Positions 1,515 through 4,766 of a stretch of 64,000 nt of DNA are shown here, in pieces (position 1 is the first letter of the stretch; each line of letters starts with the position of its first letter). The position numbers and the translations under genes are program-made. Below the pieces are notes generated by a model, which was not told the origin of the DNA, searched no databases, and was given only the letters and a program-made list of their open reading frames with translations. Source of the DNA: Virgibacillus sp. NKC19-3. GTDB taxonomy: Bacteria; Bacillota; Bacilli; Bacillales; Amphibacillaceae. The stretch spans positions 2,108,001-2,172,000 of the forward strand of contig NZ_JAGYHC010000001.1 of assembly GCF_019837165.1 (NCBI RefSeq), given 5' to 3'.

Positions 1515-1746
1515 TGACAAAAGAAGAAGAGGTATCTTTTGAAGAAGCAATGAAGCAATTGGAAGAAATAATAGCAAAGTTAGAAGAAGGTGACGTCCCT
1601 TGGAAAAAGCGATTAATTATTATCAGGAGGGGATGAATCTTACAAAGCTATGTAATGATAAACTAAAAAATGTTCAAGTTAAGATGACTCAAATTATGAA
1701 TGAGCAAGGAGAACTTGAGCAGTTTGAAATGCAGGAGGAAGAATGA
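1514..1746 (+). CDS. xseB: Exodeoxyribonuclease VII small subunit XseB, frameshifted
   Basis: Small helical subunit of exonuclease VII, partner of XseA. The ATG overlaps the xseA stop (TAATG) and has a strong G-rich ribosome site at 1502-1509. The first 30 codons read as a normal XseB start ([21 protein letters not shown]), then the frame breaks. The second half continues in another frame ([18 protein letters not shown]) to the TGA at 1744-1746. Restoring one base at about 1600, again inside CCCTTGGA, gives 77 aa, the normal XseB size. The stop overlaps the ispA start (ATGA). The same octamer is at the break in xseA. Confidence 0.88.
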
Positions 1747-2636
1747 CGGTGGATGCAAACCTGACTGAATATATACAATCAAACAAAAAGATTTTTCAGG
1801 ACTCGTTAAGGACTTTTCTTCAAAAACTTGATATCCCCACCCAGCTGAAAGAGTCCATGCTTTATTCAGTAGAAGGGAGTGGAAAAAGACTACGACCTAT
1901 CTTGGCGTTGGCTAGTTACGAGGCGTACAGTAAGGATGTTGCTTCGAAAGTATACTCATCGGCAGCAGCCTTAGAATTTATTCATACCTATTCGCTTATT
2001 CATGATGATCTTCCAGCTATAGATAATGACGATTATAGGCGAGGTGAACTGACAAATCATAAAGTATTTGATGAGGCAACTGCTATTCTTGCTGGTGATG
2101 CATTATTAACATATAGTTTTGAAATTATATCGAATGATCCTCTCTTAAGAGATAATCAGAAAGTGGAACTTATAAAAAGATTATCCCATTCCAGCGGTCC
2201 TTCTGGAATGGTAGGCGGACAACTACTGGATATAAAAGCAGAAAACAATGCAGTCACATTAGAAGAGCTTGAAAATGTTCATGCACTGAAAACTGGGGAA
2301 TTAGTAAACTTTGCGATTTTTGCAGGTGCCTTTCTTGCAGAGGCGACAGAAGACCAATTGCGTCATTTGCAAGAATTTGCCTATTATTTAGGCTTAATTT
2401 TTCAAGTACAGGATGACATTTTGGACGTAACTGGTGATCCGGGGAAGGTTGGAAGACCCGTTGGCGGTGATGAAGAAAACGAGAAAAGTACATTTCCAAA
2501 AATCCTCGGTTTAGAAGGCGCGATTCAAAAAAAGAGCGAATATGTAACCATAGCAAAAGAGGCGCTAAGAAAGGCAAATGCACAAGATTCCTATTTAATG
2601 GCGCTAACCTATCATTTTAGTCAAAGAGACCATTAA
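1743..2636 (+). CDS. ispA: Farnesyl diphosphate synthase IspA (polyprenyl synthetase family)
   Basis: Condenses isopentenyl diphosphate with dimethylallyl and geranyl diphosphate to make farnesyl diphosphate, precursor of undecaprenyl phosphate and quinone side chains. The protein is 297 aa, normal for the family. It carries the first aspartate-rich motif [11 protein letters not shown] (about residue 90) and the second, QDDILDV (about 225), which bind the Mg-diphosphate groups. GSGKRLRP near residue 45 binds substrate. An AGGAGG site lies 5 nt before the ATG, which overlaps the xseB stop. In related genomes this gene is followed by dxs; here OLE RNA and oapA follow instead. Confidence 0.95.
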
Positions 2637-2677
2637 ATTATTGAACAACTTCTTGTATAGAATTTTTTTCGACATCA

Positions 2678-2686
2678 TGTTATAAT
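2678..2686 (+). promoter_or_regulatory. Extended -10 promoter for OLE RNA
   Basis: TG at 2678-2679, one base, then a consensus TATAAT at 2681-2686. This is an extended -10 element placing the start of transcription at about 2693-2697, just at the 5' strand of the closing OLE stem. No good -35 hexamer is visible at 16-18 bp. The RNA could also be processed from an ispA read-through transcript. Confidence 0.5.
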
Positions 2687-2696
2687 AAAAACATAC

Positions 2697-3296
2697 AAGG
2701 AATGGTGCAGTATTCTAGTCAGTCCTCCGTTCCTGAAGGCGGGCCTAAAAATCCGCCAAAGGGCATATCGATGAAGTTCCTTGTGTTGGCTTGAGGCGCC
2801 CAGCCTTGGGTCGATGCTGGGAGTTAAGGTTTTCGGGCGATCCACAAAGGCATGTGGGCGTTGACCCGATTACCGTGGAGGCCCATCTCTGTAGTGGTGA
2901 CTAAGCTAGGATCCATTATGGACTGGGGTATGAACCTGCCTAATTGGAATAGGGATATTCAATTTGCAGCGTAGCCTGCCTTGAGTGGTGCTGAGGGGAT
3001 TAGAGCCTACTGTAACCATTCGGTTGGCCACTGAATGGTTACTTTTATCTCTATGAAAGCAGCTCTGCAAAAGAGGCTAGGGTTCGGTTAAAGACTGTTG
3101 AGGAAATCTCCTAGACTGTTTGAAGACGTTTAAAAGGGATTATAGTGTGGACTAAGTGGTAATCCAGTCGAACTTCCGGTGACGGAGTTCAGGTGCATTT
3201 AATGGGGAACCGCCCTAGATGGTAACATGGGGTAAGCACCGGGGAAAACCTACTGGACCTAAGCCGCAGTTTTAACCTTTTAAATGACCATTCCTT
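2697..3296 (+). ncRNA. ole: OLE RNA (ornate, large, extremophilic RNA)
   Basis: A 600-nt stretch with no credible ORF between ispA and oapA. It is far more GC-rich than ordinary spacers here and full of paired segments. Its ends pair perfectly: 2697-2706 with 3287-3296 (10 bp). Internal hairpins include GGCGG 2738-2742 with 2753-2757, CCCAGC 2799-2804 with 2816-2821, and a 10-bp stem 3012-3021 with 3033-3042. Length (about 600 nt), position after ispA and a downstream membrane-protein gene match OLE RNA of extremophilic Firmicutes. That RNA forms a membrane-bound ribonucleoprotein with OapA and affects cold, ethanol and Mg2+ stress tolerance. Identification rests on these features, not on a covariance search. 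Confidence 0.9.
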
Positions 3297-3327
3297 CCTT
3301 ACATAAATTTTTCATTTGAGGCTGATT

Positions 3328-3921
3328 ATGGATATAAAAATAAAGAAATCACTTAGATTTAGTTTGACTATCGCCGTTATCACTTTTGTGTTAGCGGCTA
3401 TTTTTTCAATAATATCTTCGTCTATTCTAAGTGGAGTTATATGGTTTATAGGTTTACTTATCGTATTTATCATTGTATTTATCGGAGTTTTATTTGATAC
3501 ACTTGGAATAGCAGCCACAGCAGCAAATGAAACGCCCTTCCATGCGATGGCGGCCGAAAAAGTAAACGGGGCCAAGGAAGCTGTGGCAATTACGAGGAAT
3601 GCAGACAAGTTTGCCAGTTTTTGTAATGATGTCATTGGGGATATATCTGGAATTGTGAGTGGTAACGCTTCTGCAATTGTTATTTTACAAATTGCTAATT
3701 TATTCGGTAATGGAGATGGCTCTACTTTACATCTTGTGTTATCCGTTGTATTGACCAGCTTTGTTGCAGCTCTTACCGTTGGAGGAAAAGCTATCGGTAA
3801 AACACTTGCCATTCATTCATCTACCAATATAATCCTATTCGCTGGGAAAATAGTAGCAATTCTTGAATCTAAATTTAAAATACGAGTTCTTCCTGATGAA
3901 AATAAAAAAGATCCATCATAA
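3328..3921 (+). CDS. oapA: OLE-associated membrane protein OapA
   Basis: A 197-aa integral membrane protein encoded 31 nt after the OLE RNA. In the OLE system OapA binds the RNA and anchors it to the cell membrane. The ATG at 3328 has a GAGG site 6 nt upstream; an in-frame TTG at 3316 is less likely. Hydrophobic segments lie at about residues 11-32, 35-56, 103-126 and 134-156. A polar central stretch (residues 62-108) has basic and acidic residues including ITRNADK and CNDVIGDI, and a late GGKAIGK follows. The last 12 residues are charged. Related proteins resemble the DUF21/CorB membrane domain. Function is inferred from context with OLE and overall resemblance to OapA. tlyA follows after 20 nt. 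Confidence 0.85.
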   Translation: MDIKIKKSLRFSLTIAVITFVLAAIFSIISSSILSGVIWFIGLLIVFIIVFIGVLFDTLGIAATAANETPFHAMAAEKVNGAKEAVAITRNADKFASFCNDVIGDISGIVSGNASAIVILQIANLFGNGDGSTLHLVLSVVLTSFVAALTVGGKAIGKTLAIHSSTNIILFAGKIVAILESKFKIRVLPDENKKDPS

Positions 3922-3941
3922 GAACGCTAGTGAAGGAAACC

Positions 3942-4766
3942 ATGAATATGAAAAAAATACGTCTAGATGAACTACTAGTAAATCGAAATATAATGGAAAC
4001 AATGGAGAAGGCCAAGCGAGTTATTATGGCTGGTCTCGTTTTCACCGGCCCAATTCGTTTGGATAAGCCAGGAATGCAAGTCGATGTAACGGCCCCTATA
4101 ACCATTAAGGGAAAGGAAATTCCATATGTAGGACGAGGCGGATTAAAACTTGAAGCAGCCTTGCATTATTTTTCGGTTTCCATTAAAGATAAAATCATGA
4201 TAGATATCGGATCTTCAACCGGCGGCTTTACAGATTGTGCACTACAAAATGGCGTATTGCAAAGTTACGCAATTGATGTTGGATACAACCAATTGGATTG
4301 GAAATTAAGAAATGATGATAGGGTTATCGTTATGGAAAGAACAAACTTTCGCTATGTAACCTCTGATATGCTTGAATATGGTATACCTAATTTTGCGTCC
4401 ATAGACGTCTCATTTATTTCCTTGAAATTAATTTTTCCAGTACTTCGTCAATTATTAGCTCCAGATAGTGATGTTATAGCACTTGTTAAACCGCAATTTG
4501 AAGCTCCCAGAGATCAGGTTGGTGAAAAGGGGATTGTGCGTGATAAGGCCGTACATCATAGCGTTTTAAAAAAGGTTATTGATATAGCCCATGAAGAATC
4601 ATTTGAACTGTATGATCTCACATATTCACCGATCACAGGCGGTGATGGTAATATTGAATTTTTGGTATGGTTTGGTTGGAAAAAGATAGGAACAGGATAT
4701 ACGATTACGGATGAACAGCTGAAAGAAGTAGTTGGTGAAGCACATCATGCATTGAAATCCATTTAA
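3942..4766 (+). CDS. tlyA: TlyA family rRNA 2'-O-methyltransferase (S4 domain)
   Basis: Belongs to the TlyA/YqxC family, which methylates cytidine 2'-OH groups in 16S and 23S rRNA; some members are instead described as hemolysins. Residues 1-60 form an S4 RNA-binding domain (IRLDELLVNRN, then KAKRVIMAGLV). The rest is a Rossmann methyltransferase with DIGSSTGGFTDC as the SAM-binding loop and VKPQFE late, fitting the K-D-K-E catalytic set. The ATG at 3942 follows GAAGGA; a GTG at 3930 is possible but worse placed. In most Bacillus genomes dxs lies immediately upstream, and here oapA does. Confidence 0.9.
   Translation: MNMKKIRLDELLVNRNIMETMEKAKRVIMAGLVFTGPIRLDKPGMQVDVTAPITIKGKEIPYVGRGGLKLEAALHYFSVSIKDKIMIDIGSSTGGFTDCALQNGVLQSYAIDVGYNQLDWKLRNDDRVIVMERTNFRYVTSDMLEYGIPNFASIDVSFISLKLIFPVLRQLLAPDSDVIALVKPQFEAPRDQVGEKGIVRDKAVHHSVLKKVIDIAHEESFELYDLTYSPITGGDGNIEFLVWFGWKKIGTGYTITDEQLKEVVGEAHHALKSI

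Follow-up and report, generated by a model that had tools for sequence, protein, structure and literature searches.

Few bacterial RNAs of unsettled function are as large as OLE RNA. In Halalkalibacterium halodurans it is abundant and membrane-bound, and forms a stress-protective ribonucleoprotein (RNP) with the proteins OapA, OapB and OapC (PMC9723947, PMC12265935). The ole gene of that species has its own promoter, and its RNA is presumably processed posttranscriptionally to ~630 nucleotides (nt); nothing firmer than this presumption about OLE processing was found in the literature searched (PMC9723947). Here we describe the OLE locus of Virgibacillus sp. NKC19-3, which lies in a 64-kb stretch of the 4.05-Mb genome (the window, whose numbering is used for all coordinates). 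Two conserved signals beside the RNA, the hexamer UACAUA just downstream of its closing helix P1 and a terminator-shaped hairpin inside the reading frame of the next gene, oapA, may explain how the OLE 3' end is made.

The spacer between ispA and oapA is virtually certain to encode a full-length OLE RNA. Comparison of the window with Rfam at the curators' cut-offs returned one match, to OLE (RF01071), at 2686..3307 on the forward strand. Its score of 508.2 bits against a gathering cut-off of 50, its E-value of 3.8e-146 and its coverage of the whole model (1-616) exclude a chance match, and a genome-wide search found no other OLE match in the genome. An earlier note, made from the sequence of the window, had proposed OLE RNA for this spacer, describing it as non-coding, GC-rich, equipped with internal hairpins and set between ispA and a membrane-protein gene. 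The covariance-model search decisively bears out the identification. No open frame of at least 60 amino acids (aa) occurs within 2637-3311, the internal hairpins coincide with those of the OLE consensus in the Rfam alignment, and the downstream neighbour is oapA. Only the GC-richness has to be toned down, being mild at 48% across the match. The A-rich P4 loop and the GGCC palindrome in the P9 loop, which are dimer contacts in the OLE cryo-electron microscopy structure (PMC12286853), are visible in the same alignment. A degenerate OLE remnant or look-alike might be suspected from the neighbouring xseA and xseB, each frameshifted in this assembly, but the full-length 508-bit match with its consensus loops, the open oapA frame and the retention of OLE in both congeners make this vanishingly improbable. 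The source of this ole gene is a member of the Bacillales, and the RNA itself is an ordinary new addition to RF01071. The OapB and OapC homologues that the note had suggested looking for are both present as orthologues, the former a 112-aa protein (PDB 7k9b, 'OLE-associated protein B', E = 1e-31) whose gene lies among genes for translation, and the latter OapC/YbxF (PDB 3v7e, E = 8.2e-23). The OapC/YbxF gene is flanked by frames that we take to be rpoC and rpsL. Taken as a whole, OLE identity and RNP role are assigned with high confidence.

As the note had also pointed out, the ends of the RNA pair perfectly over 10 base pairs, with 2697-2706 (AAGGAATGGT) as the 5' strand and 3287-3296 (ACCATTCCTT) as the 3' strand, both on the forward strand. 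These ends are unpaired in the Rfam model. Published OLE numbering includes a helix P1, part of domain 2 (PMC12265935), so the end pairing is the published P1 and is not new. Relatives keep the pairing although its bases change, with A-T, G-C and G-T types at the same pair among the near sequences defined below. Nine or ten of ten pairs are kept in 74 of the 103 near sequences scored (of 106), in a count whose tenth pair lies one base beyond P1 and is mostly G-G, and in which the 3' strand was slid to its best offset, a bias towards pairing.

Conservation was assessed in two sets of loci. The 'near' set comprises 106 sequences, that is, 104 distinct OLE cores plus two congeners (L164 and L165). 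The cores come from 111 considered (the window, which is L001, and L002-L111), with seven duplicates dropped. The 'distant' set comprises 50 loci, one per family, hand-picked among the matches listed in a phylum-wide OLE search. OLE occurs in 77 of the 101 genomes searched as relatives and in 284 of the 398 genomes drawn across the phylum, the present genome being included in both figures.

UACAUA occupies 3300..3305 on the forward strand, a position that lies beyond P1 and that the model leaves unpaired. The spacer between P1 and oapA holds TACATA in 96 of 106 near loci (shuffle mean 4.6, maximum 13), once in 91 of them, twice in 4 and three times in 1. The corresponding distant spacers hold it in 14 of 48 (shuffle mean 1.3, maximum 8). 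Confining the search to the first 41 nt downstream of the P1 anchor gives 89/103 near loci (shuffle mean 3.2, maximum 8; one of 104 was dropped, its P1 anchor not being found). A fixed 45-nt stretch gives 92/106 near and 15/50 distant loci, for which dinucleotide shuffles average 5.2 (maximum 12) and 1.1 (maximum 5), respectively. Base composition as the cause of these counts is ruled out by the shuffles. In a position scan of 81 loci in 190 bins of 40 nt, the bin with this hexamer is occupied in 69/81 and the other 189 average 1.4%; the next-highest bins, at 1970-2009 (20/79) and 2490-2529 (14/79), both lie inside ispA. The sixth base is kept as well, since A follows 101 of the 105 TACAT occurrences in near spacers, and the other flanking bases vary. 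The distance from P1 also varies, so it is the hexamer, not the spacer, that is kept. Within the OLE bodies of the 106 near sequences (61,878 bases) UACAUA never occurs, the value from dinucleotide shuffles being 7.75 with a minimum of 2, and beyond the first 90 bases of oapA at least one copy is found in 4 of 106 frames. In a few species (L080, L099, L015, L103, L107 and L109) extra hairpin-like repeats follow P1, as judged partly by eye, and sometimes lie between P1 and a UACAUA.

Two other ideas about the hexamer were set aside. A role as a 3'-end signal common to stable RNAs was rejected on a single control, RNase P RNA, whose 3' end carries the motif in 1 of 30 relatives. Mutual exclusion between UACAUA and a terminator after OLE also fails, there being no association in either set. 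Among near loci 44 have both, 48 the motif only, 6 the terminator only and 8 neither (p = 0.78); among distant loci the figures are 1, 14, 2 and 33 (p = 1). That terminator scan was confounded by a hairpin within oapA, which is how the hairpin came to light.

The hairpin lies at 3373..3398 on the forward strand, in codons 16-24 of oapA, starting 45 nt downstream of the first start-codon base. It is followed by a U-tract, UAUUUUUUCA, at 3399..3408 on the same strand, so that the layout over 3373-3408 is GCCGTTATCAC-loop-GTGTTAGCGGC-TATTTTTTCA. For the segment 3365-3410 the folding energy is -14.9 kcal/mol (z = -4.9), and none of 200 shuffles is as stable. With small variations the stem is present in 103 of 106 near loci, the exceptions being L094, L105 and L015, at a median of -12.9 kcal/mol; the strict form is found in 99. 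Of the 103 stem-bearing loci, 102 have at least six T in the nine bases that follow the stem.

The hairpin is written in synonymous positions. Its non-loop codons are nearly invariant (GCC in 103/104, GTT in 103/103, ATC in 100/102, GTG in 103/104, GCG in 103/106 and TTT in 105/106), while for most residues of equal conservation in the rest of oapA codon choice is free. High scores are also seen for some serine columns outside the block, which we ascribe to the split serine codons. Measured as codon homozygosity, the mean log ratio peaks at 0.94 in a 10-column window at the hairpin, against at most 0.30 in other parts of oapA and at most 0.25 in xseA, ispA, tlyA, argR and recN of the same loci (75-81 loci each). 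The three third-position pairs of the stem are Watson-Crick in 105, 102 and 102 of 106 loci, where gene-wide codon use predicts 26-30%, and all three are so together in 101 of 106. The one stem mismatch and the wobble pair sit at bases that are fixed by the amino acids. Third positions that are both frozen and mutually pairing are read here as the result of selection on nucleic-acid structure, and from its shape the hairpin is probably a transcription terminator.

Upstream, an extended -10 box of ole, TGtTATAAT, lies at 2678..2686 on the forward strand, is conserved in near loci and gives a predicted start at about 2693. Among the 106 near loci, 98 have a TATAAT-like box (at least five of six positions) within the 55 nt upstream of P1, and in 94 it has TG in front, a figure to be read with the preference of the promoter scoring for boxes preceded by TG. 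The remaining 8 of 106 lack either the box or a recognised P1 anchor. A generic promoter scan, whose hits must include a -35 box, does not list the ole -10 box.

Together, these signals suggest a model for the 3' end. RNA polymerase would start near 2693, transcribe OLE and enter oapA, where a large share of transcripts would end at the hairpin, at about 3405. Such attenuation would yield much OLE and little oapA mRNA from one promoter. A cut at U^ACAUA, perhaps made by EndoA/MazF and probably under stress, would separate OLE from its 3' tail and from oapA mRNA. Cutting after U3300 would give an OLE of about 608 nt whose 3' end lies 4 nt beyond P1, and would leave the ribosome-binding site on the oapA mRNA. 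The distance from predicted start to the U of UACAUA is 608 nt here, with a median of 611 nt and a range of 588-641 nt over the 84 loci with both signals scored. One of 397 genomes searched (G645) holds a published H. halodurans ole primer exactly and is, we infer, from H. halodurans or a near relation. It has the hairpin, UACAUA and the promoter box, and its predicted start and cut lie 612 nt apart. The whole scheme, in which the stress endonuclease EndoA/MazF matures OLE at a dedicated UACAUA and a synonymous-codon terminator sets the ratio of RNA to protein, is put forward tentatively, and we regard it as doubtful that all its parts hold at once.

The choice of enzyme follows from the hexamer. 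EndoA, the MazF-family toxin of Bacillus subtilis, cuts U/ACAUA and requires the sixth A (PMC11780869), and UACAU has been described as enriched in secondary-metabolite genes (PMC6562991). The EndoA of this genome shares 98 of 115 residues with that of B. subtilis (PDB 4me7/4mdx). Its gene lies in what we take to be the order alr-mazE-mazF-rsbR-rsbS. A second, diverged PemK/MazF-like match (L113, G000:C1:1740770-1741039; 70.9 bits) has an in-frame stop in the matched stretch. On balance we favour the view that UACAUA downstream of P1 is a cleavage site, and EndoA/MazF, as the best-matching enzyme, is the candidate cutter, an assignment that falls just short of an even chance.

Several observations weigh against the scheme and this assignment. 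Spacers without the hexamer number 10 of 106 in the near set and 34 of 48 in the distant set, one copy occurs within the distant OLE bodies, and the published OLE size of ~630 nt is somewhat above the predicted length (PMC9723947). Because the loci share descent, neither the near nor the distant counts are independent events. As reported for wild-type B. subtilis, cutting at UACAUA goes unseen and appears only in exonuclease-deficient strains (PMC11780869), so EndoA may idle in normal growth. EndoA-like genes are found in 49 of 52 and 30 of 30 genomes, including genomes without UACAUA, so their presence does not discriminate the carriers of the motif. No EndoA-like gene was found in G433, a distant genome (79% complete) that does carry the motif. 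A conserved motif whose supposed cutting is not seen in the wild type, and whose supposed enzyme is too widespread to leave any correlation to exploit, could instead be the landing site of another RNA-binding protein or nuclease, for instance a 3'-end protector, a membrane factor or another OLE partner. We consider this a distinct possibility, although we would not choose it. The six fixed letters, with the required sixth A among them, match EndoA exactly; no search for other readers of UACAUA was made.

The hairpin is likewise open to challenge. In the 50 distant loci a search for it gave one fuzzy match at the limit of 8 mismatches and none that is convincing, and the generic terminator scan of the window does not list it, in our opinion because of the internal mismatch. 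That omission would also suit an RNA or DNA signal other than a terminator, as would the position of the hairpin within translated sequence, the extension of the frozen block to a TCA codon past the U-tract and the fact that the arms form an imperfect palindrome in DNA too. A ribosome-pausing stem at the first membrane helix, a protein operator and a binding site for an OLE partner are candidates. The U-rich tail in 102 of 103 loci, however, gives the usual terminator shape on the forward strand, and the third-position bases pair with each other, so we think such a signal unlikely. Mere protein conservation or common descent could be invoked for the synonymous freeze, given that the amino acids at the hairpin are conserved too and that serine columns elsewhere in oapA score high. 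This is highly improbable, because equally conserved residues other than serine use their codons freely elsewhere in the gene and none of the five neighbouring genes of the same loci has such a block. The mutual pairing of the third positions contradicts it as well.

In the main texts of the freely available OLE papers searched, among which the original end-mapping studies were not included and over which the terms were unevenly covered, neither UACAUA, MazF or EndoA beside OLE nor a terminator in oapA was found. Such co-mentions as turned up (MazF with OLE RNA, a ykoY riboswitch terminator, and OLE cited in passing) are unrelated. If the scheme is correct, the OLE stress RNP would be linked to the MazEF toxin-antitoxin system, with a toxin nuclease serving as the enzyme that specifically processes a stress-response RNP, and a terminator hidden in the codons of oapA could balance OLE against OapA.

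The genes around OLE are arranged as xseA, xseB and ispA upstream and oapA, tlyA, argR and recN downstream. The farnesyl diphosphate synthase gene ispA lies at 1743..2636 on the forward strand (NF045485, 382.5 bits). Directly downstream of OLE on that strand, oapA (3328..3921) encodes OLE-associated membrane protein A, followed by tlyA (3939..4766, forward strand; TIGR00478). The oapA product has no match in Pfam or NCBIfam, and its similarity is closest to Virgibacillus and Oceanobacillus. It carries the motif NDVIGD, in which both D residues of DxxxD are invariant in 106/106 near sequences, and which we read as the DxxxD motif named as distinctive of OapA (PMC11332333). Downstream of OLE, oapA is found in 106/106 near and 48/50 distant loci (L134 and L157 have no oapA match within 400 nt downstream of OLE), and an OLE match lies just upstream in all 80 loci kept from an OapA protein search, the best 80 of 380 confirmed relatives' loci. 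A 166-aa open frame antisense to oapA (3312-3812, reverse strand) is probably a shadow of the coding strand. The frameshifts in xseA and xseB (172-1740) reflect a single base missing from each relative to both congeners, near 1358 and at 1596-1599; they are either assembly errors or a real loss, and relatives have intact copies. In the H. halodurans-type locus L167, oapA is followed by what we take to be dxs, recognised by eye in translation. Here dxs does not follow oapA, and a genome-wide search gave no dxs match above the cut-off, whereas an HMG-CoA synthase is present (546.8 bits), which points to the mevalonate route.

Compared with described systems, the RNA itself offers nothing unusual. 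It shares with the OLE of H. halodurans and other species the whole consensus, the A-rich P4 loop, the GGCC P9 loop and the oapA neighbour, and shows no differences from RF01071, whereas UACAUA and the oapA hairpin are absent from the description of the family model. The hexamer is the same as the U^ACAUA site of EndoA/MazF in Bacillota, and its place in an unpaired linker beside a helix is a further point of agreement. Published EndoA sites appear as peaks at UACAUA across the transcriptome (PMC11780869), whereas here the hexamer is kept at one place beside one non-coding RNA. With intrinsic terminators and attenuators the hairpin shares a GC-rich stem and a U-tract, at -14.9 kcal/mol, but differs from them in being embedded in the oapA frame, in synonymous positions and with one fixed mismatch.
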